From positions 1 to 64,000 of the forward strand of contig JAFTZM010000028.1 of NCBI GenBank assembly GCA_017464525.1: a stretch of 64,000 nt of DNA, read 5' to 3'. The notes beneath the pieces were generated by a model. It did not search any database. It worked only from the letters and a program-made list of their open reading frames with translations, and had not been told where the DNA came from. The translations under genes and the position numbers were made by a program. This document shows positions 3,656-47,977 of this stretch, in pieces; the first letter of the stretch is position 1; each line of letters opens with the position of its first letter. This stretch comes from Clostridia bacterium (GTDB lineage: Bacteria; Bacillota; Clostridia; Oscillospirales; QAKW01).

Positions 3656-4297
3656 CCTACTTCCGAAACCTTTAAGTATGAGACCAAGCGTAAAAATCTG
3701 TTTCTGCGGGTGGCAAGAGGCCATTTTGCTACCACCGGCCGCCATACCAATTATTATGTGGATGTGGCTGCCCAGAAGAGCCGCCTTTCTGAGGCCAAGG
3801 CTGTTGCAGAGGAGCTGCGTTCCTATTACTATAGTGATACGGTGGTGGATACCATTCTTTGCCTGGAGGGCACCGAGGTGATCGGCACCTGCCTGGCTGA
3901 GCAGTTGACCAAGGCGGATTTTGTAAATATGAATTCCCATAAAACCATCTATATCGTCACCCCCGAGGTGACCAGCAGCGGCCAGCTGATGTTCCGGGAT
4001 AATATTGTGCCGATGATCGCCGGCAAGCACGTGCTGGTTCTGGCAGTCTCCGTTTCCTCCGGCAGATCTACCTCTGTGGCGGTGGATGCGGTGCAGTATT
4101 ACGGCGGCAAGGTGGCCGGGATCTCTGCCATCTTTTCTACCATGGAGAAATGTGCCGGGTTCCCGGTCCATGCGGCCTTCAATCCCAATGATCTGATGGA
4201 TTATGTGAGCGCGCCTGCCCATGATTGCCCCATGTGCAAGGCCGGCCGGAAACTGGATGCTTTGATCAATAGTTACGGCTTTTCCAAACTGGACTAA
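3653..4297 (+). CDS. Orotate phosphoribosyltransferase-like protein
   Basis: Type I phosphoribosyltransferase fold, 214 residues if it starts at ATA 3653. It resembles a Firmicutes family annotated as orotate phosphoribosyltransferase. Recognisable parts are GHFATTGRHTNYYVDV near the start, the sheet around VVDTILCLEGTEVIG, and the PRPP-loop position VLVLAVSVSSGRST near residue 125. That loop lacks the usual adjacent Asp-Asp that binds ribose and metal, so orotate transfer activity is uncertain. The C-terminus has a CPMC motif (DCPMCKAGRKLD). Starting at GTG 3710 would remove 19 conserved-looking residues. The gene is monocistronic, between its own promoter and a terminator. Confidence 0.72.
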   Translation: MPTSETFKYETKRKNLFLRVARGHFATTGRHTNYYVDVAAQKSRLSEAKAVAEELRSYYYSDTVVDTILCLEGTEVIGTCLAEQLTKADFVNMNSHKTIYIVTPEVTSSGQLMFRDNIVPMIAGKHVLVLAVSVSSGRSTSVAVDAVQYYGGKVAGISAIFSTMEKCAGFPVHAAFNPNDLMDYVSAPAHDCPMCKAGRKLDALINSYGFSKLD

Positions 4298-4421: not shown

Positions 4422-5864
4422 ATGAAAAAAATCTATCTGGTACATCCTCAAAAAATCGGTACCATTGCACCAGAGCTCTACGGCCATTTTATCGAGCATA
4501 TCGGCGGTGTGTTTTACGACGGCCTTTGGGTGGGGAAGGATTCACCCATCCCCAATATCCGGGGGTTCCGCAAGGATCTGGTGGAGAAGCTGAAGGCCAT
4601 CCATCCGCCGGTGCTTCGCTGGCCGGGCGGTTGCTTTGCCGAGACTTACGATTGGCGGGATGGGATCGGGGAGGAGCGCCCTACCCGTATCAGCTGGTGG
4701 ACCGGCCGGGACGGGCGGTATGAGCCCAATGCGGTGGGCACCCATGAATTTATGGATCTTTGCGAGATGGTAGGCGCAAAGGCCTATTTTGCCGCCAATC
4801 TCACCACCGTTTCCCCGCTGCATATCCGGGATTGGATGGATTATTGCCTCTCTCCCCGGGGAACTACTACTCTTGCCAAGGAGCGGGAAAAGAATGGGCA
4901 TCCGGAGCCCTTTGACATTCCCTTCTGGGGCATCGGCAACGAAAACTGGGGCGGCGGCGGAAGGATGCGGCCGGAATTTTATGCCGATGAATACCGCCGC
5001 TTTGCCACCGTTCTGCGGAATGCGGCGGGAGATACAGAGTTCTACGCCTGCGGCTCTGACAGTGAGGACTATAATTGGACCCACGGGGTGGTTCCCGGCC
5101 TGAAGGACCGCCGGGGGCGCATCGATGCCGAAGGCTTTGCCATGCATTACTATTGCGGCAAGGCGGGGGATCCTGTTGCCTTCACCGAGGAGGAATGGGA
5201 TGAACTGATCGCCAAAGCTCAAAAGATGGAGGCCATCATCAAGCGCAACTGGAATATCATCTGCGCCCACGGTGCGCAGGATAAGCTCAAGCTAATCGTG
5301 GATGAATGGGGCTGCTGGCACCCCGACGGCTCCGGCCCCAGTAAAGGTTATAACCTTTTCGAGCAGCAGAGCACTATGCGGGATGCCATGGTGGCAGCGC
5401 TGACCCTTAATATCTTCAATAACCATTGCGATAAGGTGCGGATGGCCAATGTGGCACAGCTGGTCAATAACCTGCATTGCCTCTTTCTGGCCGGCGGGGC
5501 GAACTGCATCGTCACCCCCACCTACCATGTATTTGATCTTTATAAAGGGCATCAGGGCGCTGAAGCCATTCAGGTGATTGCCGATGATCAACTTTCGGTT
5601 TCTGCATCGGTGAAGGATGGCAAGCTGCTGGTAACGGTGGGTAATCTTTCCTGCCGGGAGGATGCCACATTCACCCTGGAAAGCCTTGGATTATCCTTGG
5701 CCGCAAAAGGGAAGGGGCGGTTGCTGGCTCATGGGGATCTTCATGCGCATAATACCTTTGAAGAGCCGGAGCGGGTGCAGCCTGTGGATTTTGAATTTGA
5801 TGCAGATCAGCCTGTCAGTCTTCCCAAGGGCGGGATCGCAGCATTAGAGGTGGAGATCATATGA
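4422..5864 (+). CDS. GH51 alpha-L-arabinofuranosidase
   Basis: Retaining exo-glycosidase releasing L-arabinofuranose from arabinan, arabinoxylan or arabinogalactan oligosaccharides, 480 residues. The N-terminal barrel has GHFIEHIGGVFYDGLWVG and LRWPGGCFAETYDWRDGIG. The acid/base is E174 in GNENWGGGG, and the nucleophile is E295 in VDEWGCW. The C-terminal part is the usual small beta domain. There is no signal peptide, so it is cytoplasmic. Its stop overlaps the next gene by 4 nt, so the two are translationally coupled. It fits with the GH127 enzyme and ribulokinase further along the window. Confidence 0.94.
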   Translation: MKKIYLVHPQKIGTIAPELYGHFIEHIGGVFYDGLWVGKDSPIPNIRGFRKDLVEKLKAIHPPVLRWPGGCFAETYDWRDGIGEERPTRISWWTGRDGRYEPNAVGTHEFMDLCEMVGAKAYFAANLTTVSPLHIRDWMDYCLSPRGTTTLAKEREKNGHPEPFDIPFWGIGNENWGGGGRMRPEFYADEYRRFATVLRNAAGDTEFYACGSDSEDYNWTHGVVPGLKDRRGRIDAEGFAMHYYCGKAGDPVAFTEEEWDELIAKAQKMEAIIKRNWNIICAHGAQDKLKLIVDEWGCWHPDGSGPSKGYNLFEQQSTMRDAMVAALTLNIFNNHCDKVRMANVAQLVNNLHCLFLAGGANCIVTPTYHVFDLYKGHQGAEAIQVIADDQLSVSASVKDGKLLVTVGNLSCREDATFTLESLGLSLAAKGKGRLLAHGDLHAHNTFEEPERVQPVDFEFDADQPVSLPKGGIAALEVEII

Positions 5865-7180
5865 ATCTGAATATCGTTGATGCATACAGAAACCTGATCC
5901 TAGAGACTCAGGATCATATCTGGAAGAATGCCGAGACCGGTTACCGGGAAATCAAAACCGCAGCTTATATGGAAAAGGTTTTTGAGGACTTGGGCTATGA
6001 GCTGGTTCGGGCGGGGGATATCCCCGGCTTTTACACCGATATCGATACGGGTAAACCGGGCCCCAAGCTCCTGATTTTCGGGGAACTGGATTCTCTGATC
6101 TGCCCGGAGCATCCCGAAGCCACCGAACGGGGGACTGTTCATTGCTGCGGGCATAGCGCGCAATGCGCCGCTCTGGTGGGCATTGCGGCGGGGCTGAAGG
6201 CTCCCGGTGCATTGGACGGTCTTTGCGGCAGTATTCGTCTTTGTGCGGTTCCGGCCGAGGAACTGATTGAGATTGAATATCGGGAAGAGTTGAAAAAGCA
6301 AGGTAAGATCCGCTATTATGGGGGTAAAGTTGAATTCCTTTACAGAGGATTTTTTGATGGCTGTGATATCGTCTATATGCTCCATACCGCCGGAGGAACA
6401 GAGTTTTTCGAGACAAAGGGGAGTGTGGGCTGCATCAGCAAGAGGGTCATCTTCAAGGGGGTATCCGCCCATGCCGGTGGCAGTCCTTCCCGGGGCATCA
6501 ATGCGCTTTATGCTGCTAATTTGGGGCTGAATGCCATCAATGCCATCCGTGAGACCTTCCGGGAGCGGGATCAGATCCGGGTACATCCCATCATCACCCA
6601 AGGGGGCGGGGCGGTCAATGCCATCCCCGATTGTGTCAAGGTGGAAAGCTATGTGCGGGGCGCTTCCTTCGATGCCATCCGTGCGGAGAATCTAAAGGTC
6701 AACCGGGCGTTGGTGGGTGCTGCCCTTTCCATGGGGGCCAATGTGGAGATCATCGATGAGCCGGGCTATGCACCGTTGGATAACTGCAAGGCATTGTACG
6801 ATGTTATGGCCGACGCCGCCGCAGACCTTGGCTTTGCTTGTAATTACAATGATCATCGGGGTACCGGATGCACCGATATGGGAGATATCTCCTGCATCTT
6901 CCCCTCCATCCATGGCTATGCGCCGGGTGCGATCGGCACCAGCCATGGGACCGATTACTATATCGCCGATCCCGATCTTGCTTGCGTGGCTTCCGCTAAA
7001 GTTCAGTTGAAGATGGCGGAGCTTTTGCTGAAGGATGGAGCCGCCCGTGCCAAAGAGATCATCGAAGGCTTTGAGCCTCTCTTTGCTTCCAAAGAGGAAT
7101 ACTTTGCCTACGTGGACGAGATGGCCTGCTCGGGCGACCGTATCGTTTACGGGGGCGGAAAAGCGGAAATAAAATTATAA
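5861..7180 (+). CDS. M20D-type amidohydrolase / aminoacylase
   Basis: Zinc-dependent amidohydrolase of the M20D (HipO/AbgB-like) group, 439 residues, predicted to cleave an N-acyl or aminobenzoyl amino acid bond in the cytoplasm. Visible metal and catalytic sites are HCCGHSAQ near residue 95, the VPAEE glutamate pair, MLHTAGG, the dimerisation-domain motif GVSAHAGGSPSRGINAL, and GTSHGTDYY near the C-terminus. It overlaps the GH51 gene by 4 nt (ATGA), and GAGGTGGAG just upstream serves as ribosome binding site. The link to arabinose use is not obvious. Its substrate is unknown. Confidence 0.85.
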   Translation: MNLNIVDAYRNLILETQDHIWKNAETGYREIKTAAYMEKVFEDLGYELVRAGDIPGFYTDIDTGKPGPKLLIFGELDSLICPEHPEATERGTVHCCGHSAQCAALVGIAAGLKAPGALDGLCGSIRLCAVPAEELIEIEYREELKKQGKIRYYGGKVEFLYRGFFDGCDIVYMLHTAGGTEFFETKGSVGCISKRVIFKGVSAHAGGSPSRGINALYAANLGLNAINAIRETFRERDQIRVHPIITQGGGAVNAIPDCVKVESYVRGASFDAIRAENLKVNRALVGAALSMGANVEIIDEPGYAPLDNCKALYDVMADAAADLGFACNYNDHRGTGCTDMGDISCIFPSIHGYAPGAIGTSHGTDYYIADPDLACVASAKVQLKMAELLLKDGAARAKEIIEGFEPLFASKEEYFAYVDEMACSGDRIVYGGGKAEIKL

Positions 7181-7181
7181 T

Positions 7182-7218
7182 AAAAATGGGTAAAAACCAA
7201 CGGTTTTTACCCATTTTT
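7182..7218. terminator. Bidirectional terminator between convergent genes
   Basis: A 17-bp perfect stem at 7182-7198 and 7202-7218 with a 3-nt loop and A/T tracts on both sides. It can end both the M20 transcript and the minus-strand permease transcript. Confidence 0.9.
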
Positions 7219-8079
7219 TTAACTGAGCGCCATCAGGATCAGGGCGGCGACGCCGAGGAGGGTGCCGATCAACTGATTCTTTTTGAGTTTTTCTTTATAG
7301 ATCAGGGCGGAGACCAGAAAACTGAAGACCATCCCCGATCCCGTTCCCACGGGGGAGGACACCGAGACGGGGAGGTGGCGGTAACTGATTAGGGTGAGCA
7401 GATTTTTGCCGCCGTTAAGCATGCCGATCCCCGCGCCGTAGAGGGCGCCGAATCTGAGGGCAGAGCACATAATGCTCCGCTCCAACAACAGCGCCAATAC
7501 CAGCAGAAAAAGAAAGGCACCGCCGAAGGAAAGGAGCATAAATTCGTTGTCGCACTTCGTATCGAAGGCGATCTGTTGCTCGCGGTTGAGAATGCCGATC
7601 ACCCCGTTGCTGAAAAGGGCAACCATCGTCCAGAGGAACCATTTGAAGGAGACCCATTTTTGCCCTACCTCCTTCTTTTCAAGGTTGACCGTTACGATGG
7701 AGGCAACCGTCAGCAGGATGGCGGCATAGCGCAGGAGATTTGCAGGTTCCTTCAGGTAAAAGAGGGCGTAGATCAACACGATAACCCCCGAAAAGTTGGT
7801 GATCAGCACGGTCAGCATATAGGAGCCCAACTGAAAGGCGCGGTAGACGCTGTAAAACCCTGCGGCGATCATCAGGGCATTGAGGGTGCCGTACCAAAAC
7901 ATCTCTTTGGGGAAGAACAATCCCTCACTGTCGGTGAGGAAAAAGAACACCGATGCAAACAGGCAGATCACGCTGTTGAAGAATAAACCGCCGTTGCCGT
8001 GTTTTTTGCTGTAGCGGCGGGTGAGCATGGTCTCGCCCTGATTCAAGGCTTTGCTTAATAAAATGAAAAAATAGCCCAA
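7219..8079 (-). CDS. DMT-superfamily (EamA-like) permease
   Basis: Integral membrane transporter of the drug/metabolite superfamily, about ten hydrophobic helices over 286 residues, in two similar halves. The start is placed at TTG 8079 because AAAGGAGGG (8094-8086) sits just before it; the GTG at 8112 would place the ribosome binding site inside the coding sequence. It is a paralogue in fold, though not close in sequence, of the permease at 11402-12268. The last codons run into the shared terminator. Nothing in the sequence reveals the substrate. An amino acid, sugar or metabolite exporter role is typical for the family. Confidence 0.78.
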   Translation of the reverse strand: MGYFFILLSKALNQGETMLTRRYSKKHGNGGLFFNSVICLFASVFFFLTDSEGLFFPKEMFWYGTLNALMIAAGFYSVYRAFQLGSYMLTVLITNFSGVIVLIYALFYLKEPANLLRYAAILLTVASIVTVNLEKKEVGQKWVSFKWFLWTMVALFSNGVIGILNREQQIAFDTKCDNEFMLLSFGGAFLFLLVLALLLERSIMCSALRFGALYGAGIGMLNGGKNLLTLISYRHLPVSVSSPVGTGSGMVFSFLVSALIYKEKLKKNQLIGTLLGVAALILMALS

Positions 8080-8162
8080 ACCGATCCCTCCTTTGAGAGT
8101 ATACTTTAACACAGTTCGGGCTATTTTTAAATGGACAAAAGTTGCATTTTTATGGAATTTTT

Positions 8163-8249
8163 TCAGGTGTGGTCCTGCACATCCCGTAACAGTTCCGGTT
8201 GGGCGGAGACATAAAACGCCGGATAAAGCGGGGGAAGATCCCGAATTAT
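8163..8249 (-). pseudogene. Possible in-frame tail of a lost coding region
   Basis: Directly after the stop of the Gfo/Idh gene the same minus-strand frame stays open for 28 codons (ending VQDHT and a TGA at 8165-8163), with codon use like a gene. It has no start codon. It may be the remnant of a longer C-terminus or of a deleted gene, or chance. Confidence 0.25.
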
Positions 8250-9494
8250 TTAGTCATCCAGCGTAGCCTCCTGCCCGGTGAGGGAGAGGGCGCTGGGGCG
8301 GATGGGAGCCGGGCGTTCGCAGCGGGTGGTCATCTCGTAGATCCTGCCGGTAGTGCAGGATTCCTGAATTCCGTGGATCACCTCGATGGCGTGGAGACCG
8401 ATGTCGTAGTGGCAACGGGGCTTACGGCCGTTGAGCAGCGCATAGCACATATCAGCAAGGCCGATGCCCCGGCTGGAGCTGGAATAGCCGTGAAGGATGG
8501 GCAGCTGCACCGTCTGGGTGGGGCAGGCCTCGCCCAGATTCTGGATATCCTCTTCGTTGTCCTGAGGTTTCATGGTTTGAGAGGTAGGGGTCTGCCCGGC
8601 GGCGATCTTTTCCGCCTTAGGGTCGGCACCGGCACGGGTGACGCTGATCAGGCTGCTGAAGCTGTTGGGGTCGCCAAGATTGAGTACGCCCTCGGTGCCG
8701 GTGATCTCAAAGTGACGGGTGTGGTTGGAATCGGAGGAGATGTGGAAGGTGCCCACGGTGCCGTTCTCAAATTCCAGCGCCGCCATCAGGGTGGTGGGGG
8801 TATTCACAATGAAATCCTCTCCGTATTTGGGATGGCGGGGGTTGGTGTACTTACGGACCGGGTTCAGGTTGCCGCCGAAGCCGGTGACCCGCTTCACAGA
8901 ACCCAGCAGATTGATCATCTCATGGAGATAATAGCCGCCCAGATCAAAGGGGAAGCCGCCGCCGTAATGGAGGGGGAAGAAGAAATATTTGGGTGCAAGA
9001 TCAAAATAGGGAGTGGAGGGCTCATAGTGAGCGGTGATCTGGGCGTGCACCGTCACCGGCTTACCAATGATGCCGTCGTCTAAGTATTTGCGGGCGGATT
9101 GCTCCCAGGCTCCCAGGAAGGTATCGGGGGCGGTGGTGAAGGAGACGTGATTCTCCTCGGCCAACCGGGCCAGCTCCTTAGCCTCCTCAAAGGTGGGAGC
9201 CATCATCTTCTCGCAATAGACGTGCTTGCCGTGTTTCAGGGCTTCTGCTGTCACCTCAAAGTGGGATTCGGGGTAGGTGAGGTTGACAACGACCTGAATC
9301 TCAGGGTCGTTATAGATCTCCTCATTGGTCATCTTTTTGATGCCGTAGGTGTCTGCCATGTACTGGGCCCGGGAATCGATGAGATCCGCACAGCCTACCA
9401 CCTCGATGACGTTGAACTTGTACATCATGTTGTCCATGTAGGTACTGCGGCAAATACCGCCGCAGCCGATGACGCCGACTTTTACTTTTTTCAT
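8250..9494 (-). CDS. Gfo/Idh/MocA-family oxidoreductase
   Basis: NAD(P)-dependent sugar or cyclitol dehydrogenase, 414 residues. The N-terminal Rossmann fold has VGVIGCGGICRSTY; the family signature EKMMAPTFEEA is near residue 95 (EK as in EKP). The C-terminal substrate domain has DLGGYYLHEMINLLG, the usual position of the catalytic Asp and His. It is downstream of a beta-helix protein and a permease on the same strand, with the upstream stop 4 nt away and its own AAAAGGAGAA ribosome binding site. The set may import and process a carbohydrate or uronate; the substrate is unknown. Confidence 0.85.
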   Translation of the reverse strand: MKKVKVGVIGCGGICRSTYMDNMMYKFNVIEVVGCADLIDSRAQYMADTYGIKKMTNEEIYNDPEIQVVVNLTYPESHFEVTAEALKHGKHVYCEKMMAPTFEEAKELARLAEENHVSFTTAPDTFLGAWEQSARKYLDDGIIGKPVTVHAQITAHYEPSTPYFDLAPKYFFFPLHYGGGFPFDLGGYYLHEMINLLGSVKRVTGFGGNLNPVRKYTNPRHPKYGEDFIVNTPTTLMAALEFENGTVGTFHISSDSNHTRHFEITGTEGVLNLGDPNSFSSLISVTRAGADPKAEKIAAGQTPTSQTMKPQDNEEDIQNLGEACPTQTVQLPILHGYSSSSRGIGLADMCYALLNGRKPRCHYDIGLHAIEVIHGIQESCTTGRIYEMTTRCERPAPIRPSALSLTGQEATLDD

Positions 9495-9498
9495 TGCT

Positions 9499-11388
9499 TT
9501 ATTCTCCTTTTCCGTTTGCTAAAAAGCCCTTAAGGGGCTTGAAACCGAGCTTGAGGGCGGGGGAGCTCTCTTTCAGGGTGAAATCGAATTCCGCCGCATT
9601 TTCAAAGAGGGGGTCGGCAACGATGCTCCCCGCATCCTTGCCGGCTTGCTGCCATTCCTCCAATGGCTGATCGATCATTTGAACTTCGCCGCCAAGATCC
9701 CAGAATAGGTTTTTGCTGCTTCGGAGGGTGTGGATGCCCTCTTTTGGATGGTAGGCGGGGGCGTTTTGGGTCAGAATGATGTTACATTCTGCCAGCACCG
9801 TCTCATGATCTTCCCGGCGGCTGATTTGGATCCCATGGCCGCCGAAGGCGAAGATATTGTTCCGCACTATATTATTGGAGCCGTAGTGCTGATGGAAGGA
9901 GGCATCCTTGGTGCAGAACACCACATTATTTTCAATGGTGATATAGCTGGAGCCTTCGTCAGTATAGATACCCCAGCCGCCGTAGTTGGCGCTGGTCACA
10001 TGGTGGATCCGGTTTTCGCTGACCACTGTGCCGGGCTGCTTGCCCAAAAGATAGATACCGCCCATATCCGAAAGACGCCCCATGCCGATATGGTGGATGT
10101 GATTGCGGCGGATGATGTTGCCGTAGGTGCTGCTGGGGGCATAGCCCCATACCCAGCCTACCGAGATGCCGGTGTAGTCCATATGATGGATGTGGTTTTC
10201 GGCAATCTCCAGATGGGAGGTGTGGTTGGCCAGGATGCCGCAACCGGCAGCGTACCGCTTGCCGCAATGGGCGATCTCATTGCCACGAATGGTGCAATGG
10301 GCGGTGGCCAGGGCAGGCGCTTCTTCCGAAGCGCCGCCGAAGATCTTGATGCCGCCGGCACCCAAATCTTCGATGAGGTTGTTTTCGATGCGAATACTTT
10401 CGCAGCCGGTTCTGATCTCGATGCCGTGGATCCCCAGATGGTGCAGGATACAGTTTTCAATGGAGCACCGCCCGGCATTCTCAAAGATGATGGCGCCGGG
10501 GGCCCAGCAGACCGATTGGATATCGGAGGCGTAAGGGCGGGGATCCTCCGGTTGCTGGCTCAAGTAATCCCCTTGGGTGCAGAGAAATTCAAGGTCCCGG
10601 ATCCGCACGTCCTCGGCGGCGATCTCCAGCAGACGGGGCAGGGTGGGGGCATAGGCCTCCGTTGCCTCGCCGCAGTAGTAGACCTTGCCGGTCTTGCGCT
10701 CCAGGTACCATTCGTTTTCCGTTCCGAAGGTGGAGGGGACGTTGGTGAGGTAAAAGTTCATTTTTGCCGTGGAGCCTTCCTCGGTATTGATGAGGAAACG
10801 GGAGGCGTATTTCATTACCAGCTTGCCGGTTTCCGGGTCATAGCTTTCGATGGGGGAGTGCTCATCGATCCAATAATGATAATAGTTGATAATGGCATCT
10901 TCCACCCCTTCTACCTCCTTCAGATCGGCGATGATCCATTGGGAAGAGGCGAGAAGATTGTCGGATGTTTTTTTGAAATTCTGCTCGGTATCCAGAGCGG
11001 GGAGTTCTCCTTCTCTGGGGTAGCGGGTGGCATCGGCACGCTTGCCGTTTACCCACAGGTCGGTAAAGACCCGAGCACCAACTTTAGCGGAGCGGCAAGA
11101 AACGCCGTTGAAGATGTCCTCCTGCCAATTTTCGATTTTAAACCCGCCGATGATCCTTTTTCGTCCGCCGCAGGATTCCAGCGTCACCGCCGGCTGATCG
11201 ATGAGCAGAGGCTCCTCCAGATAATAATCCTCGGTGAGTGCCACAGTAAAGGGGCGCTGATCTCCCTCTGCCCGCAGTGCTCGGATGGCATCCATGGTAC
11301 GGTGCAGGGTCTTGAAGGGGGTGTTCATCCCATCGGCATGATCGCTGCCGTGGGCAGGGGAAACATAAAAAACAGAAGATGGATACAT
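9499..11388 (-). CDS. Right-handed parallel beta-helix protein (carbohydrate-active?)
   Basis: 629 residues with no signal peptide. The N-terminus has FYVSPAHGSDHADGMNTPFKTL, typical of the entry cap of pectin-lyase-like beta-helix proteins. From about residue 260 to 560 there are repeated coils with N and H ladders (for example IENCILHHLGIHGIEI, IENNLIEDLGAGGIKI, IRRNHIHHIGMGRLSD). This fold is shared by polysaccharide lyases, some glycosidases (GH110-like) and epimerases, so the exact activity is not settled. It is cotranscribed with a permease upstream and Gfo/Idh downstream. A clear AAGGAGAAA ribosome binding site precedes ATG 11388. Confidence 0.78.
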   Translation of the reverse strand: MYPSSVFYVSPAHGSDHADGMNTPFKTLHRTMDAIRALRAEGDQRPFTVALTEDYYLEEPLLIDQPAVTLESCGGRKRIIGGFKIENWQEDIFNGVSCRSAKVGARVFTDLWVNGKRADATRYPREGELPALDTEQNFKKTSDNLLASSQWIIADLKEVEGVEDAIINYYHYWIDEHSPIESYDPETGKLVMKYASRFLINTEEGSTAKMNFYLTNVPSTFGTENEWYLERKTGKVYYCGEATEAYAPTLPRLLEIAAEDVRIRDLEFLCTQGDYLSQQPEDPRPYASDIQSVCWAPGAIIFENAGRCSIENCILHHLGIHGIEIRTGCESIRIENNLIEDLGAGGIKIFGGASEEAPALATAHCTIRGNEIAHCGKRYAAGCGILANHTSHLEIAENHIHHMDYTGISVGWVWGYAPSSTYGNIIRRNHIHHIGMGRLSDMGGIYLLGKQPGTVVSENRIHHVTSANYGGWGIYTDEGSSYITIENNVVFCTKDASFHQHYGSNNIVRNNIFAFGGHGIQISRREDHETVLAECNIILTQNAPAYHPKEGIHTLRSSKNLFWDLGGEVQMIDQPLEEWQQAGKDAGSIVADPLFENAAEFDFTLKESSPALKLGFKPLKGFLANGKGE

Positions 11389-39335: not shown

Positions 39336-40327
39336 AAAACCGTCATTTTTTGAAACTTTTGGATTATACCCCCGCTGAGATCGGGGCTTTGCTGGATCTG
39401 GCAGCAGATCTGAAAAATAAGAAGAAAAACCGCATCCCTCACCGCTATTGCGAGGGCAAAAATATTGCCCTGATCTTTGAAAAGACCAGTACCCGCACCC
39501 GCTGCAGCTTTGAGGTTGCCGCCTATGATCTGGGGATGGGGGTCACCTATCTGGATCCCACCGGCTCCCAGATCGGTAAAAAGGAAAGCATTGCCGATAC
39601 CGCCCGGGTGCTGGGCCGGATCTATGATGGCATCGAGTACCGGGGCTTCGGCCAGGAGATCGTGGAGGAGCTGGCCAAGCACGCCGGAGTGCCGGTGTGG
39701 AATGGCTTGACCAATGAGTTTCATCCCACCCAGATCCTGGCTGATTTTCTGACCATCCGGGAGCATTTCGGCAAACTGAACGGCATTAAAATGGTCTATC
39801 TGGGGGATGCCCGCTATAACATGGGCAATTCCCTGATGGTGGGTGCCGCCAAGATGGGTCTGCATTTTGTGGCCGCCGCGCCCAAGGCCTACTGGCCCGA
39901 TGAAGCGCTGGTCGCAGAATGCCGGAAGATCGCAGCCGAGACCGGCGCCACCATCGAGTTCAACGAGGATCCCAAGAAAGCGGTCAAGGGCGCTGATGTG
40001 CTTTACACCGATGTCTGGGTCTCCATGGGCGAGCCTGCCGAGGTGTGGGAGGAGCGGATCAAAGCCCTTTCCCCCTATCAGGTCAATAGCGAGTTGATGC
40101 AGATCGCAGGGGAGAAGGCGGTATTCATGCATTGCCTGCCCGCCTTCCATGATCTTAATACCACCGTTGGCAAGGAGATCAGCGAGAAATTCGGCATCAA
40201 CGAGATGGAAGTGACGGATGAAGTGTTTGAAAGCGCCCAGTCCATTGTGTTCGATGAGGCCGAGAACCGGATGCACACCATTAAAGCGGTGATGCTGGCC
40301 ACTTTAGAGGGGATTTCACATGACTAA
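39332..40327 (+). CDS. argF: Ornithine carbamoyltransferase
   Basis: Makes citrulline from ornithine and carbamoyl phosphate, 331 residues. The carbamoyl-phosphate site is [15 protein letters not shown], and MHCLPAFHD holds the ornithine-site cysteine. It overlaps the truncated carA by 8 nt, so carbamoyl phosphate use and production are encoded side by side. Confidence 0.96.
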
Positions 40328-40742
40328 AGCATACTTAATGCTGGCCGACGGTACTGTTTTTGAGGGTACCGCCTTTGGTGCCGAAAAAGAAAATGCCGGA
40401 GAACTGGTTTTCAAGACCAATGTGGTGGGGTATCTGGAAACTTTAGAAGATCCCGCCAATGCCGGCAAGATCATTTTGCAGACCTTTCCGCTGATCGGAA
40501 ATTACGGGGTCATTCCCGAGGATATCAGCGGGAACTGTACTCCCGCCGGTTATGTGGTGCGGGAGATCTGTGACGCTCCCTCCAACTTCCGCTGTGAGGG
40601 GACGTTAGATGCTTATTTGAAAGAACAGGGTATTCCCGGTATTGCCGGCGTGGATACCCGTGCGCTGACCCGGATCCTGCGGGAGAAGGGCAGTATGCAG
40701 GCAAAAATCGTATACGAGGTGACGGATCATGCCGCTGAATAA
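40320..40742 (+). CDS. carA: Carbamoyl-phosphate synthase small subunit, N-terminal domain only
   Basis: 140 residues that match the N-terminal domain of CarA from start to domain end ([47 protein letters not shown]). Normal CarA has about 350-380 residues, with a class I glutamine amidotransferase domain holding the Cys-His-Glu triad. All of that domain is missing. The stop is at 40742, and carB begins inside the last codons, so there is no room for a frameshifted remainder. The reading frame is clean, and the break falls at the domain border. The product could still dock on CarB, but it cannot hydrolyse glutamine. Confidence 0.88.
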
Positions 40743-43700
40743 ATCAATTAAGAAAGTATTGGTCATTGGCTCCGGCCCCATTGTGATCGGCCAGGCGGCA
40801 GAATTCGACTATGCGGGTGCGCAAGCCTGCCGGGTGCTGAAGGAGGCCGGGGTGAATGTGGTGCTTGTCAACTCCAACCCAGCCACCATCATGACCGACA
40901 AGGCGCTGGCGTATGAAATTTATCTGGAGCCCCTCACCGCCGAAACGGTGAAGCGGATCATTGAAAAGGAACAGCCCGATAGCCTGCTGGCGGGCTTGGG
41001 CGGCCAGACCGGCCTGACCATCGCCATGCAGCTTCATCACGAGGGCTTTCTGGAGGAGGCTGGGGTACGGCTTATCGGCACCAATGTGGATGCCATTGAT
41101 AAGGCGGAGGACCGCCAGCTCTTCAAGGATACCATGGAGGCCATTGGAGAGCCCTGTATTCCTTCGGATATTGCTGAAAATCTCCCCGATGCGCTGGCCA
41201 TTGCGGCCCGTATCGGCTACCCGGTGATCGTGCGCCCTGCCTTTACATTGGGCGGCACCGGCGGCGGTGTGGCGTATAGCGAAGAGGAATTGCGCACCGT
41301 GGCCCGGATCGGCCTGGATGCTTCCCCCATTACTCAGATCCTGGTGGAGCGTTACATCTTCGGCTGGAAGGAGATCGAATTCGAGACCATGCGGGATAGC
41401 GCCGGCAACGCCATCGCCGTTTGCAGCATGGAAAATGTGGATGCGGTGGGGGTTCATACCGGCGATAGCATTGTGGTGGCTCCTGCCCTGACCCTTTCCT
41501 CCAAGGAATATAAAATGCTGCACGATGCTTCTCTGAACATTGTGAAGGAGCTGGGCATCGTGGGCGGCTGTAACTGCCAGTTTGCCCTCAATCCCGATAG
41601 CTTTGAGTACGCTGTCATCGAGGTCAATCCCCGGGTCTCCCGTTCTTCGGCGCTGGCCTCCAAGGCTACCGGCTATCCCATTGCGAAGATCACCACCAAG
41701 GTGGCGCTGGGCTATACGCTGGATGAGATCACCAATGATATTACCGGCAGATTGGGGGTAAACTTTGAACCTTCGGTGGATTATGTGGTGCTGAAGTTCC
41801 CCAAATGGCCCTTCGATAAATTTGCCGGCACCTCTCGGAAGCTTGGCACCCAGATGAAGGCCACCGGCGAGGTGATGAGCATTGCCCCCTCCTTTGAAAT
41901 GGCGCTGATGAAGGCCATCCGGGGTGCAGAAATCTCTCTGGAAACGCTGAATGCGGCCCCGCTGGATGATGCGCCCCTCATGGAGCGGCTGAAGCGGATC
42001 GATGACCGCCGCATCTTTACCGTCTTTGAGGCCATCAAGGCGGGGATCGCCATCGATACCATCTATGAGATCACCCGCATCGACCGTTTCTTCTTATATA
42101 AATTAAAGAAACTGGCAGATTTTGAGCAGAATTGGGCAGGAGATTACGCCGAAGCCAAGCGGCTGGGCTATCCCGATTCCGCTTTAAAAAAGCTCTTTGA
42201 TTATACCCCCGATGTGCCGCAGGCCTTTTCCTATAAAATGGTGGATACCTGCGCCGGGGAATTTGCGGCGAAAAAGCCCTATTTCTATTCCTCTGCCGAT
42301 GGGGAGTGCGAAGCCCGGAGCTGGCAGCGGAGCGGCAAGCCGGTGGTGTTGGTGCTGGGCAGCGGCCCCATCCGCATCGGCCAGGGCATCGAATTTGACT
42401 ATTCCTCTGTCCACTCGGTGTGGACATTGAAGGAGATGGGCTATGAGGTCGTGATCATCAATAATAACCCCGAGACCGTCTCTACCGACTATGATACCGC
42501 CGACCGGCTGTACTTTGAGCCTCTTTGCCCCGAGGATGTAATGAACATTATCCGGGTAGAGAAGCCGGTGGGGGTGGTGGTTGCCTTCGGCGGCCAGACC
42601 GCCATCAAGCTGACCCAGTTCCTGGATCAGAGCGGCATACGTATTCTGGGTACCTCTGCCGAGGGCATTGACCTGGCGGAGGATCGGGAACGGTTCGATT
42701 GCCTTTTGGAGGAGATCGGTGTCCGCCGTCCCTCCGGTAAGGGCGTCAAGACGCTGGAAGAGGCGTTGGAGGCCGCTGAGGAACTGGAATATCCGGTGCT
42801 GCTGCGCCCCTCTTATGTTATCGGCGGGCAGAATATGAAGATCGTCCACAATGCGGATGAGGTCAAGCTTTATATGGATCGCATCTTGGCGCAGGGCATT
42901 GAAAACCCGGTGCTGGTGGATAAATATATGATGGGCACCGAGCTGGAGGTGGATGTGATCTCCGACGGTAAGGATGTGCTTATCCCCGGCGTGATGGAGC
43001 ATATCGAGCGGGCGGGGGTCCACAGCGGTGATTCCATTGCCGTTTATCCCCCTTATAACCTGAACGACCGGATGCTGGAAAAGCTGCTGGAGGTCTCTGA
43101 AAAGCTGGCGCTGGCGCTGGGTACGCAGGGATTGGTCAATATTCAGTATCTGATCTATCAGAACGAGCTGTTTGTCATCGAGGTCAACCCCCGGGCCAGC
43201 CGCACCATTCCCTATATCAGCAAGGTGACCGGTGTACCGATGGTGGATCTGGCCTCCAAGGTGATGCTGGGGCAGCCTCTGAAGGAACTGGGCTACGGCA
43301 CCGGTCTTTACCGTACCCCGCCTTATTTTGCCGTGAAGGTGCCGGTATTCTCCTTTGAGAAATTAGAGGATGTCAATGCCTATATGGGCCCTGAAATGAA
43401 GTCCACCGGCGAGGTGCTTGGGTTGGGTAAAACGGTGGAGGAGGCCCTCTTTAAGGGGCTCTCTGCCGCCGGATTTAAGATGAAGGATGCCCATAAGGAG
43501 GAAACCGGCTTCCTGCTGAGCGTGGATACCCACGACCGGCTGGAGGTGGTCAGCCTGGCCAAAAAGCTGGATGATCTGGGCTTTAAGCTTTATGCCACCG
43601 AGGATACGGCAGAAGCCATCCGGCCTTTGGGGCTGGAGGTAGTCTCCATGCCCGGCATCGGGGCGGAGGATCATATCTTCGAATTGCTGGAGAGCGGTAA

Positions 43701-44742
43701 GGTCAGCTATATTCTTTATACCGGTGCGCTGCTGGATTCCAGCGTGGAGCAGTATATTGCCCTTCATCGGCGAGCGCTGCAGCTTTCCATTCCTTGCCTG
43801 ACCTCTTTGGATACCGCCAATGCTCTGGCAGATAGCATTGCCAGCCGGTTCAATCAGCAGAATACCGAGCTGGTAGATATCAATAATCTTCGTGAGAAGC
43901 GGGAGGAGCTGCATTTTGCCAAGATGCAGGCTACCGGTGATGATTATATTCTTATTGAGAATTTTGACGGTCGGATCACCTGCCCCGAATCCCTTTGCGT
44001 GGGGCTTTGTGATCGCCACAAAGGCGTCGGCGGCTACGGTCTGGTGTTGATGGAGCGTTCCGCAAGGGCGGATGTGAGGATGCGCATCTTTAACCGGGAC
44101 GGCTCGGAGGGTGCCATGGGCGGCAACTGCATCCGTTCGGTGGCAAAATACCTTTATGATAAGGGCTTGGTTCACCGGGAGAAGGTGACGGTGGAGACCC
44201 GCAGCGGCATCATTACGGTTCGGGTGTATACCGCCGGCGGTAAGGTGAATTTTGCCAGCGTGGAGATGGGTAAGGCGGTGCTGGATACCCCAAGCATCCC
44301 CTGCACCCTGCCGGAAGAGCAGGTGATCGACTATCCTATCGAGGTGGCGGGCAGAACCTTCAACATCACCTGCGTGAATGTGGGGAATCCCCATTGCGTG
44401 GTGTTCTGCGACCGGGTGGATACCCTGGATCTTAAGTCCTGGGGCCCGCTCTTTGAAAACCATGCCATCTTCCCCCAGCGTACCAATACCGAGTTTGTGC
44501 GAGTGGTCAACCCCACCACCATCAAAATGCGGGTGTACGAGCGGGGCAACGGCGAGACCTCTGCCTGCGGCACCGGCGCCTGCGCCGCTGTGGTTGCCGC
44601 TGTGGAAAACGGTCTTTGTAAAAAAGATACCGATATCACCGTGAAAGTCCGGGGCGGCGATCTGCTGATCCGCTACTCTGATGAGGGCTTGACCCTTTCG
44701 GGCGAAACAGTTCTGGTTTATGAAGGGGTAACTACATATTAA
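40729..44742 (+). CDS. carB-dapF: CarB-DapF fusion: carbamoyl-phosphate synthase large subunit joined to a diaminopimelate epimerase domain
   Basis: 1337 residues. Residues 1 to about 1060 are a full CarB: first ATP-grasp half (VLVIGSGPIVIGQAAEFDYAG), second half from about 538 (VLVLGSGPIRIGQGIEFDYSS), and an MGS-like regulatory domain (about 930-1055). From residue 1061 (LHFAKMQATGDDYILIENFDG) to the end is a complete DapF-like domain, with GNPHC and the second catalytic cysteine C1280 in GNGETSACGTGACAA. At the first catalytic cysteine position the sequence reads M-G-G-N-C-I-R-S, so the usual Cys is Gly (1131), with a Cys at 1134. GGGAGGAG at 43901-43908, now coding, looks like dapF's former ribosome binding site. 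Confidence 0.92.
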   Translation: MPLNKSIKKVLVIGSGPIVIGQAAEFDYAGAQACRVLKEAGVNVVLVNSNPATIMTDKALAYEIYLEPLTAETVKRIIEKEQPDSLLAGLGGQTGLTIAMQLHHEGFLEEAGVRLIGTNVDAIDKAEDRQLFKDTMEAIGEPCIPSDIAENLPDALAIAARIGYPVIVRPAFTLGGTGGGVAYSEEELRTVARIGLDASPITQILVERYIFGWKEIEFETMRDSAGNAIAVCSMENVDAVGVHTGDSIVVAPALTLSSKEYKMLHDASLNIVKELGIVGGCNCQFALNPDSFEYAVIEVNPRVSRSSALASKATGYPIAKITTKVALGYTLDEITNDITGRLGVNFEPSVDYVVLKFPKWPFDKFAGTSRKLGTQMKATGEVMSIAPSFEMALMKAIRGAEISLETLNAAPLDDAPLMERLKRIDDRRIFTVFEAIKAGIAIDTIYEITRIDRFFLYKLKKLADFEQNWAGDYAEAKRLGYPDSALKKLFDYTPDVPQAFSYKMVDTCAGEFAAKKPYFYSSADGECEARSWQRSGKPVVLVLGSGPIRIGQGIEFDYSSVHSVWTLKEMGYEVVIINNNPETVSTDYDTADRLYFEPLCPEDVMNIIRVEKPVGVVVAFGGQTAIKLTQFLDQSGIRILGTSAEGIDLAEDRERFDCLLEEIGVRRPSGKGVKTLEEALEAAEELEYPVLLRPSYVIGGQNMKIVHNADEVKLYMDRILAQGIENPVLVDKYMMGTELEVDVISDGKDVLIPGVMEHIERAGVHSGDSIAVYPPYNLNDRMLEKLLEVSEKLALALGTQGLVNIQYLIYQNELFVIEVNPRASRTIPYISKVTGVPMVDLASKVMLGQPLKELGYGTGLYRTPPYFAVKVPVFSFEKLEDVNAYMGPEMKSTGEVLGLGKTVEEALFKGLSAAGFKMKDAHKEETGFLLSVDTHDRLEVVSLAKKLDDLGFKLYATEDTAEAIRPLGLEVVSMPGIGAEDHIFELLESGKVSYILYTGALLDSSVEQYIALHRRALQLSIPCLTSLDTANALADSIASRFNQQNTELVDINNLREKREELHFAKMQATGDDYILIENFDGRITCPESLCVGLCDRHKGVGGYGLVLMERSARADVRMRIFNRDGSEGAMGGNCIRSVAKYLYDKGLVHREKVTVETRSGIITVRVYTAGGKVNFASVEMGKAVLDTPSIPCTLPEEQVIDYPIEVAGRTFNITCVNVGNPHCVVFCDRVDTLDLKSWGPLFENHAIFPQRTNTEFVRVVNPTTIKMRVYERGNGETSACGTGACAAVVAAVENGLCKKDTDITVKVRGGDLLIRYSDEGLTLSGETVLVYEGVTTY

Positions 44743-44746
44743 TTTA

Positions 44747-44777
44747 AAAAGCCTGCGTGCTGAGCACGCAGGCTTTT
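44747..44777. terminator. Bidirectional terminator after the arginine operon
   Basis: A perfect 14-bp stem (44747-44760 / 44764-44777) with a TGA loop; A and T tracts on either side serve the operon and the convergent lipoprotein gene. Confidence 0.9.
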
Positions 44778-44780
44778 GGT

Positions 44781-45467
44781 TTAGTATACGAAGGTTGGGA
44801 TGTTTTCCAGCGCTTCTTTTTGGGCATCGGTAAGCATTTCCGATATTGTGCCTTCGATGTGATCTCCTTCGATTCGAACCGCATGGACGGAACCGGAAAT
44901 TTTATCGCCAAGATTATAGTCAAATTGGTCGCTTGATCCGGTGGAAGGGAAGTTTAATTTGACTGTTTTTTGGGGCTCGTCCGGTAGTTTAGCGTATATA
45001 AATGATTCGTAAATTGCAGTAACGATCATGGGGGTATCGTCTGCAAGAAAGCTTCCGGTGATGTCGGGGCCGATAAAGTCCTCCGAATGGGTGATCTCTG
45101 TCAAAAGAGGCTTGCCGCTTTCGGGGATGCGGTACCGTTTTCCGTTGAAGCGCAACAGCATATCTTTGAGGGAGAATTCAACGGTTGCAGTTTCTCTTTC
45201 TTCCCCCGGATCTTCCATTAGGCAGACGGTATATTCGGAAGAGAAGGAGGTTTCCTCTGCAACTGCGGTGGATGCTAGAAGGATTTGCCGGCAGAATTTT
45301 TGGGCGTATTCTTCGTTTAAAAGCCCGTTTGCATCCCCCTCGATGGTCATAGAAGTGGGGGAGAAGGTGTCGGGGCTTTCAACAACAGGGTGATCTACCT
45401 GCGCTGTGCAACCGTTGAGAAAAAGATACATTAAAATAAGTCCTATTATAATGGTAATTTTTTTCAT
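44781..45467 (-). CDS. Hypothetical lipoprotein
   Basis: 228 residues. The signal peptide MKKITIIIGLILMYLFLNGC ends in a lipobox (LNGC), so the protein should be lipid-anchored outside the cell. The rest is hydrophilic with no recognised domain; motifs such as FSLKDMLLRFNGKRYRIP suggest a beta-rich fold. It lies 11 nt downstream of the broken peptidase on the same strand and shares its promoter. The ribosome binding site is GAGGTC. The function is unknown. Confidence 0.7.
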   Translation of the reverse strand: MKKITIIIGLILMYLFLNGCTAQVDHPVVESPDTFSPTSMTIEGDANGLLNEEYAQKFCRQILLASTAVAEETSFSSEYTVCLMEDPGEERETATVEFSLKDMLLRFNGKRYRIPESGKPLLTEITHSEDFIGPDITGSFLADDTPMIVTAIYESFIYAKLPDEPQKTVKLNFPSTGSSDQFDYNLGDKISGSVHAVRIEGDHIEGTISEMLTDAQKEALENIPTFVY

Positions 45468-45478
45468 AATAGACCTCT

Positions 45479-45961
45479 TTATCTGTATGGACAGAAGGCG
45501 AACATTTCTCTGTTAATTCCGGTTAAATTCGTGCTATCCCATTCATAATAAGTCAGCATATCCCAGCAGACATAGCGTTTTCCTCCGTTTGCTAACGCAT
45601 CATATATTTTGATGAAAGAGTAATTTTCTGGTTGACCATTTCGTATCCCTGATATATTGTTATAGCCAAAGATAATGTTCATATGACCTCCGGGATAGAA
45701 TGTAGATACAGTGGAATTGATTCCTAATAATATTGGCCATCCTAAATCAATATAATCTGTAACAAAATCCCAATCCGCATCTTGGCCAGAACTATGAGCT
45801 ACTTGCCCATAATAGCCGAAAGAATAATTGATGTTCATGGTGTGACAGCAATTGTTTTGAATGTTGTGATGAATAAAACGATCACCGAGATAACTGCGGT
45901 TTTCTAAAGATGTTTCTTCAATGTTTTCATTTGCTTTCCTCCTAAAAATTATTAAAGACAA
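45479..45961 (-). pseudogene. Truncated secreted cysteine peptidase (C39/papain-like C-terminal half)
   Basis: The 160-codon frame keeps what looks like the C-terminal half of a C39/C10-type peptidase (GWPILLGINST, then GGHMNIIFGYNN with the catalytic His, and FIKIYDALANG). The N-terminal half with the catalytic Cys is absent. The good ribosome binding site AGGAGG points to a different-frame ATG that encodes only MKTLKKHL before a stop, as if the original signal peptide and half the enzyme were lost by a frame-breaking deletion. It is AT-rich compared with its neighbours. It could still be a functional short protein from ATG 45961, but this is less likely. Confidence 0.6.
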
Positions 45962-45969
45962 ATGTCTTT
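45954..45969. promoter_or_regulatory. Palindrome at the transcription start of the peptidase/lipoprotein pair
   Basis: AAAGACA-AA-TGTCTTT at 45954-45969, where transcription from the promoter upstream would begin; a possible operator. Confidence 0.4.
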
Positions 45970-45975
45970 GTAAAT

Positions 45976-46004
45976 AATATATATTAAGTTCATAAAAAAG
46001 TCAA
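45976..46004 (-). promoter_or_regulatory. Promoter of the broken peptidase and lipoprotein
   Basis: Minus strand: TTGACT (46004-45999), 17-nt spacer, TATATT (45981-45976). Confidence 0.65.
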
Positions 46005-46128
46005 TAGAAATAGTTTAAAATGTAAAAAAAGTGATGTGTAATGATAAAATTTATAGTCTGGTGATTTTGGATATAAACGGGCGATATACATTCTACGTGA
46101 ACAGAAATGTAATTGTTGAGGAATATAC

Positions 46129-46173
46129 TCCGGTGAGACGATTTTGGTCTACGAAGGCGTTACAACCTATTAA
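46129..46173 (+). pseudogene. Remnant of a second dapF 3' end
   Basis: In one frame this stretch encodes SGETILVYEGVTTY and a stop, matching the last 14 residues of the CarB-DapF protein (SGETVLVYEGVTTY) with one change. At DNA level 12 of 45 bases differ, and 11 of these changes are synonymous, so it is not a recent copy but a diverged homologue that was under selection. Upstream similarity stops abruptly. Its own terminator follows directly. Confidence 0.8.
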
Positions 46174-46206
46174 AAAATGGCTGAGTGCTTTGCACTCAGC
46201 CATTTT
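46174..46206. terminator. Bidirectional terminator between the dapF remnant and the GH127 gene
   Basis: A 15-bp perfect stem (46174-46188 / 46192-46206), TTT loop, and A/T tracts at both ends. Confidence 0.9.
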
Positions 46207-46207
46207 C

Positions 46208-47959
46208 TTATAATTTGGGGAGCTCGGACATGCGGAGCTTGGCGCAGCCGTAGGGAACGAGGGTGATCTCTTCGGGGTCGCTGATGGGTTCGGTGTTTTG
46301 GGGGACTTTGGCGCAGACGGTCTCGTAGCCTTCCTCATAGCCCCAATCGATCTTGCAGGCTTTGATCTTCATGGTAAGGGGTGGGTGTTCCGAGGAGAAG
46401 GGGATGGCATCCACCTCGCCGGGAATCAGCTCCGGCTCGCCGCAATAGGCGTAGTTCCAATCTGATCTTGCGATGTATTCATAGTCGCAATAGGGAAATT
46501 TGCGTTCTACACCGTTTCGTTCGTATTCCAGCATTTTTTTCTCATACTGAATGGGAAGAGCAAAGACGAGGGACCCGTATTTTACCGCCTTTAGGTCATA
46601 GGGGCGGTCAATAAACTCCAACTTTCGTTCGATCTCAATGGAAATATCGGTTTTTTCTCCTGCTTTAAATGTAAAGTTTTTATCCTTTACAACCAAATTA
46701 AAGTCTTTTTCGGTATCGATGCGGTAGGTGACGGTATTTTTAAAGGGATATTCGGTGATGATCTCGATATGGATACCATTTGCATCTAATTTTGCGGGAA
46801 CGGGAAGGGTGTTAACCACCGTATCCCCGTTGTGCATGAAAACAGAGAGGGCCAGCTTGGGCCAGGCCTGGTTGAAGTTGGAGGTGCAGCAGCCGTAATG
46901 GGGCTCCAGACCGAAGATGTGGGCATCCTTGCCGTTGGTGCGGAAGATGGGTTTGCCCTCAAACCGCTGGCAGGAGATCTGGTTGCTCATCTGCACATAC
47001 TGGTGCGCCCACATATCGTCGCTGATGGTAGCGGGGAGGGCGTTGAATGCCAGCAGCTCCAGCCGGTCTGCCCATTTCTGATCCCCGGTCACTGCAAAGA
47101 GATGCTCATAGGAATACATCTGCTCCACCACAGAGCATAACTCTGTACCCTGGATGGGGCTTAAGCCGGAAAGGCACTCATCGCCGGTAAACAGGCCCAC
47201 GGGGGTGCCGTTCCATTGATCCAGGAGGGTGCGGAATTTCTCCGCCTCATCGGTATATTCTTCTCCCAGCAGTTCATGGGAGACGGCTTCGGCCTTCAGC
47301 ATCATGCAAAGGTTGACGATATGGGTGTAGAGGGTCCACTTATTCAGCGGGCGCTCCCAATGGGGGATGACTTCGTGGTAATCCTTGCCCTGCTCCTTGA
47401 GAAGGGCGGCCAGCTCCTTCAGCCACTCTTCGCCGGTTCTTTGATAGAGAAAATTGATGGCGATAAAGCCCTCAAACCAGCGGTACCGCCCCCAGCGGAA
47501 GAGGTGGATAGTGCCGTTTTTCAGCAGTTCATAGTAGTTTTTCAGGGCTTTTTCCAGGGCACCGGGGATCCGCTCATCTCCGGAGCACTCATAATAAACC
47601 ACCAGCACCTTGGAGATAAGCAGAGTGGCCCAAGTGTCGTAGGTGGAGATCTGATCCTCGCCGCAGGGGCAGATCCAGCCGCTGGGCTGCTGCCGCTCCA
47701 GAATAGCGTCGATGTACTTCTTCGCCCGGCCGATCATATCCTCGTTTCCCAGCAGATAGGCCAAGGGAATAAAGCCGTCCAGCCAGTAGGGGACTCGCTC
47801 CCAGCCCTCGGAGGTGCCGCCGATCCAGGCGCTATCCCGAACATCGCGCCAGACCTTATCTAAATTGCCGCTCAGGCCTTCAGCTTGAATTTCCAGCTGG
47901 CGCTTCAGCCAGCCGGCGGGCTTAATTTCATTGGATGTATAAAAATTCCATTTTTTCAT
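46208..47959 (-). CDS. GH127/GH146-type beta-L-arabinofuranosidase (DUF1680)
   Basis: 583 residues, with the (alpha/alpha)6 barrel of the DUF1680 family. Motifs: WERVPYWLDGFIPLAYLLG, TELCSVVEQMYSYEHLFAVTGD (with the conserved Glu and Cys), and EPHYGCCTSNFNQAWPKLA, where the tandem cysteines belong to the zinc-thiolate site containing the nucleophile. It removes beta-linked L-arabinofuranose, as in plant hydroxyproline-linked arabinans. There is no signal peptide, so it is cytoplasmic. The start is at ATG 47959 behind GAGGTG rather than the GTG inside that site. Works logically with GH51 and ribulokinase. Confidence 0.9.
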   Translation of the reverse strand: MKKWNFYTSNEIKPAGWLKRQLEIQAEGLSGNLDKVWRDVRDSAWIGGTSEGWERVPYWLDGFIPLAYLLGNEDMIGRAKKYIDAILERQQPSGWICPCGEDQISTYDTWATLLISKVLVVYYECSGDERIPGALEKALKNYYELLKNGTIHLFRWGRYRWFEGFIAINFLYQRTGEEWLKELAALLKEQGKDYHEVIPHWERPLNKWTLYTHIVNLCMMLKAEAVSHELLGEEYTDEAEKFRTLLDQWNGTPVGLFTGDECLSGLSPIQGTELCSVVEQMYSYEHLFAVTGDQKWADRLELLAFNALPATISDDMWAHQYVQMSNQISCQRFEGKPIFRTNGKDAHIFGLEPHYGCCTSNFNQAWPKLALSVFMHNGDTVVNTLPVPAKLDANGIHIEIITEYPFKNTVTYRIDTEKDFNLVVKDKNFTFKAGEKTDISIEIERKLEFIDRPYDLKAVKYGSLVFALPIQYEKKMLEYERNGVERKFPYCDYEYIARSDWNYAYCGEPELIPGEVDAIPFSSEHPPLTMKIKACKIDWGYEEGYETVCAKVPQNTEPISDPEEITLVPYGCAKLRMSELPKL

Positions 47960-47977
47960 TTTTTTCACCTCGGTTTC

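Follow-up and report, generated by a model that had tools for sequence, protein, structure and literature searches.

Introduction

Displaced copies of gene ends have been described in several bacterial systems. At the icd gene of E. coli, the e14 prophage stands beside a displaced 165-bp gene end in which 12 bases have changed and two residues are conservatively replaced (PMC11148124). Orphan 3' ends of effector and Rhs genes have been ascribed to homology-facilitated illegitimate recombination (PMC5361080), a process that is known from experiments in transformable species and is rare in E. coli (PMC3240628), and that has also been proposed for replaced segments between E. coli strains (PMC2884548).

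Here we analyze a 64,000-nucleotide stretch of DNA from a Clostridia bacterium of the order Oscillospirales (the whole stretch is called the window), in which a fused carB-dapF gene is followed by a second, orphaned dapF end, referred to as tail 2. With its complete front gene and its mostly synonymously diverged end beyond an insert, the locus recalls e14 at icd and the icdC remnant; however, the e14 prophage encodes an integrase and its repeat measures 165 bp, whereas here the repeat is 45 nt, the insert is 1.4 kb and there is no integrase. The orphan 3' ends of Rhs/CDI and T6SS effector genes are alike in that an old end is shifted behind newly arrived DNA, and they are explained by recombination anchored in a conserved part with illegitimate joining at the other end. 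Those are diversifying polymorphic toxin genes, whereas dapF is a housekeeping gene and its product is unchanged. Finally, homology-facilitated illegitimate recombination as known in Acinetobacter, Streptococcus and Pseudomonas, and rarely in E. coli, predicts that one junction is homologous and the other is not, with a resident remnant left behind, the product proposed for our locus; there the process was shown by experiment, whereas for this locus and this order we infer it from end products. Tail 2 is most likely the scar of a recombination between two related forms of the gene, a type already described at icd and in the Rhs orphan ends.

Results

The features of the locus are as follows.

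40729-44742, plus strand: carB-dapF fused gene, 1337 aa, intact, with Pfam CPSase_L domains and DAP_epimerase, terminating in tail 1
44698-44742, plus strand: tail 1, the last 14 codons and stop of carB-dapF, SGETVLVYEGVTTY*
about 44747-44777: terminator T1, which separates carB-dapF from the convergent lipoprotein gene (predicted RNA fold -24.4 kcal/mol, z -6.1)
44781-45467, minus strand: lipoprotein-like ORF, 228 aa, signal peptide with a lipobox-like Cys
45479-45961, minus strand: C39_2-like peptidase, C-terminal half (Pfam PF13529, E 0.0026, below its cut-off)
45962-46128: AT-rich stretch up to the junction with tail 2 (27% GC at 45875-46124)
46129-46173, plus strand: tail 2, an orphan dapF end of 14 codons and TAA, SGETILVYEGVTTY*
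about 46174-46206: terminator T2, a homologue of T1 that separates tail 2 from the convergent GH127-like gene (-23.8 kcal/mol, z -8.8)
46208-47968, minus strand: GH127-like beta-L-arabinofuranosidase gene, convergent with tail 2 (Pfam PF07944)

The DNA of the two tails, codon by codon, is given below.

Tail 1: TCG GGC GAA ACA GTT CTG GTT TAT GAA GGG GTA ACT ACA TAT TAA
Tail 2: TCC GGT GAG ACG ATT TTG GTC TAC GAA GGC GTT ACA ACC TAT TAA

The initial annotation had described a second dapF tail of 14 residues plus stop, one change away from the end of CarB-DapF, some 1.4 kb downstream of the fused copy and with a terminator of its own. All of this is borne out by our analysis: 13 of the 14 residues are identical, the two stops lie 1431 nt apart, and T2 forms a stable predicted hairpin. 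The tail-to-tail comparison also confirms the earlier count of DNA differences (12 of 45 nt, of which 11 are synonymous and one changes Val to Ile), and all 8 fourfold-degenerate sites differ. The differences are spread along the whole tail; the longest run identical in both is about 6 nt, and a very short core is possible. We also considered whether the match could be due to chance. We collected 159 distinct dapF ends from genomes of the order and from 80 named contigs and, for each gene, looked downstream for the best match to its own final 14 residues standing before a stop. This match reached a BLOSUM score of 70 in the window, 70 in L129, 69 in L132 and 46 in L239, and at most 24 at every remaining end. 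This gap excludes a chance match and identifies tail 2 as homologous to the dapF end. The GC3 of tail 1 appeared atypical (4/14); gene ends in the window are often low as well, and we therefore did not use it.

Since nearly all of the differences are synonymous, both tails were ends of working genes until recently. As judged from this substitution pattern, and from the difference at 8 of 8 fourfold sites against 47% between this gene and that of its congener G004, they diverged as parts of working, selected genes before they met. An in-place duplication of the gene end followed by drift is highly improbable, because a non-coding copy would change at all positions; the lepA gene-end copies described below, nearly identical within a genome, are those that look like in-place duplications.

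The hairpins behind the two tails are also related. A stem core common to T1 and T2, CTGNGTGC-NNN-GCACNCAG, fits both exactly, and no other site in the window fits it with fewer than 3 mismatches. The core stems of the two hairpins, CTGCGTGC-TGA-GCACGCAG and CTGAGTGC-TTT-GCACTCAG, are one compensated base pair apart, and the stop codon of a convergent gene lies within a few bases after each terminator. Going by these stems, T1 and T2 are homologous.

At the far junction, the dapF remnant is present behind 46129 and there is no dapF similarity in front of it. The similarity 5' of 46129 is not significant (40% of shuffles are as good), and an upstream extension of tail 2 with indels was rejected as no better than shuffles. 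The fragment is therefore limited to the terminator and some 45 nt of coding sequence. These results bear on the idea that the downstream DNA once held a complete second dapF or carB-dapF, derived from a congener, and that a deletion spared its last 14 codons and terminator. Such a second copy, acquired for example via single-crossover integration, would lead to the same end state; a complete stand-alone dapF does lie directly behind carB-dapF in L239, and the genome of the window has a second carB-dapF-like locus elsewhere (48% identical). However, this route requires two events and would have left no wider dapF remnant upstream of 46129, and in L239 the second gene is a distant paralogue instead of a near-identical allele. 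We consider this history unlikely. The L239 match itself was rejected as a scar, because it represents a complete dapF paralogue.

No integrase or transposase was recognized between the tails (44743-46128) among the ORFs and with Pfam. The lipoprotein-like ORF has no Pfam match and no relative in the family. In the C39_2-like gene, a stop and a frame change interrupt the upstream start with its signal peptide, so that the gene has probably decayed. Among 394 genomes of the order, a relative of this gene was found only in G004, where the start is likewise broken and the gene adjoins a lipoprotein gene, but elsewhere in the genome. C39_2-like genes adjoin lipoprotein genes in two congeners (window, 45479-45961; L055, 1420-1830); both are of the same broken-start type, and the catalytic half is seemingly missing. 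A viral origin was rejected, as the viral contigs searched showed neither the tail pattern nor a relative of the lipoprotein. On the right, the GH127-like gene is absent from the other family members searched. It was rejected as a resident neighbor in relatives, because it lies beside no dapF in the genomes searched.

We next consider the origin of the two tails. The carB-dapF fusion is also present in about 125 other genomes of the order, and the nearest relative, which is the only congener with this gene, is G004 (the same as L058); its protein is 87% identical and ends in SGGTVLVYEGVTTY*. Other genera mostly end dapF differently, for example with KTEY, RVEY or GEIEY. The genus-type residues SG.T.LVYEGVTTY occur in both tails and, as a whole, were not seen in other genera, so both tails come from close relatives within this genus. 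Compared with G004, tail 1 differs at 8 of 45 nt and tail 2 at 11 of 45. Fourfold divergence from G004 stays even, at about 0.47, throughout the arg-car-dapF operon, with no mosaic breakpoint seen. A phylogeny of DapF set against that of CarB, the check named in the initial annotation, gave concordant trees in which the window groups with L058 both times. Together with the even fourfold divergence, this gives no sign that DapF is foreign as a whole, a possibility that we therefore reject; given the concordant trees, any foreign part must be short or come from a congener. No intact gene ending in tail 2 was found in the searched genomes, one per species and from species other than that of the window. 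The proposal that two separated dapF alleles met here is supported by the predominance of synonymous differences and by the recurrence of the arrangement, with different cargo, in two other species. Within the same operon, the carA of the window (40320-40742) has only 140 codons, with a CPSase_sm domain and without the glutaminase domain, while that of G004 at the same place has 355 codons; the genome of the window has two other carB loci, one of them beside a carA-like sequence.

Partial second dapF tails were found at 3 of the 159 dapF ends, namely in the window, L129 and L132. The second end in L129 spans 84 nt with 5 differences and lies 2.8 kb from the gene end, in the order carB-dapF, thyA-dfrA, a secreted protein gene, second dapF end, terminator and a tRNA-like sequence. 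That of L132 spans 120 nt and lies 0.6 kb away, in the order carB-dapF, a 151-codon ORF, second dapF end, terminator and ssrA-like sequence; both the tRNA and the ssrA labels were assigned by eye. In L132, the last approximately 33 nt hold most of the differences, mainly synonymous, and the 87 nt before them are nearly identical, a pattern that a crossover within the gene end would be expected to leave. The CarB and DapF trees both place L129 and L132 as sister species, and their cargo, repeat length and right-hand neighbor differ; their tails could possibly stem from one shared older event. The 3' ends of the tRNA-like and ssrA-like genes with their terminators look partly duplicated (L129, 16800-17054; L132, 14650-15253), and these partial duplications stand around REP-like palindromes (GAACAGTCC..GGACTGTTC). 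In L131, a short repeat of the dapF end (TEIEY*) lies right behind the dapF stop.

A scan of ORF ends across all genes gave 13 matches, some of them noise, against three in an antisense control. At argJ (L124, around 3929-4103), the tail copy lies 174 nt downstream with synonymous differences and a palindromic REP-like spacer. At lepA, five Oscillibacter-type loci (L102, L106, L123, L128 and L136) each carry a nearly identical repeat of the last approximately 78 nt about 225 bp downstream, set apart by a GC-rich palindromic spacer of about 165 bp; in L123, the spacer sequence is also present after the second tail. Shorter copies occur in L158 (queA-like, probable) and at one more gene in L219, and the matches in L121 and L065 were discarded because they look like tRNA or repeat noise. 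The genome of the window (about 1.05 Mb scanned) yielded one more candidate on contig C34 of G000 (about 4824-10004, minus strand), where the last codons of an AraC-type regulator recur 5.2 kb downstream with a 30-nt identical core and without the synonymous pattern; three genes lie between these tails, one of which looks like a DeoR-type regulator. From these copies, scars of the gene-end type are seen to recur at several genes in the order.

These comparisons bear on a site-specific integration at the dapF 3' end, in which an element as at icd, with a synonymously diverged gene end in its attachment site, would have restored the gene, displaced the old end and since decayed to 1.4 kb. The e14 locus looks alike in its displaced gene end with base changes and conservative replacements (PMC11148124), and tail 2 is indeed a gene-end copy that was under selection and now lies displaced beyond the insert. 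Moreover, second tails are commoner at dapF ends than at other ORF ends (3/159, compared with a few events among about 3,100), an enrichment that is only suggestive because the sample was chosen around dapF. On the other hand, an integrase is absent from the ORFs of the window insert and none was recognized by eye in the L129 and L132 inserts; the duplicated stretch starts 45, 84 and 120 nt before the stop in the window, L129 and L132, with no common crossover point; the tails share no identical core beyond the run of about 6 nt; and the same type of scar is found at lepA and argJ. The variable start, the unrelated genes involved, and the absence of both an integrase and a common core argue against one site-specific recombinase and for a homology-anchored joining within the gene with illegitimate completion at the other end. 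We thus regard site-specific integration as unlikely, and of the integration or recombination at the dapF 3' end put forward in the initial annotation, recombination is favored, while integration by a recombinase finds no direct support. It is also doubtful that the carB-dapF 3' end in Oscillospirales is the target of undescribed small insertions that carry a synonymously recoded gene end, keep the essential gene whole and displace the old end.

Discussion

We lean towards the explanation that tail 2 once terminated a second dapF allele of the same genus and was orphaned by one-sided homologous recombination with an illegitimate far junction. Incoming DNA, consisting of one dapF end and downstream genes, would be joined to a chromosome carrying the other end. 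Homology would let one of its sides pair with the resident carB-dapF, and its other side would be joined illegitimately at 46128/46129, just inside the last codons of the resident gene. The front gene would thereby stay complete, and the old last 14 codons and their terminator would be left behind, with the lipoprotein/C39 pair in between. Both the one-sided mechanism and the role of tail 2 as the resident end are putative. That the incoming DNA restored the gene end, as the initial annotation suggested, is plausible.

The frequency of orphaned gene ends in the order is a mild surprise. As traces of gene gain, orphaned gene ends can be dated, in that the synonymous distance gives the divergence of the partners. 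Because they recur within one order, at dapF, argJ, lepA and other genes, they provide an easy means of mapping where uncultured gut bacteria acquire genes without visible mobile elements.
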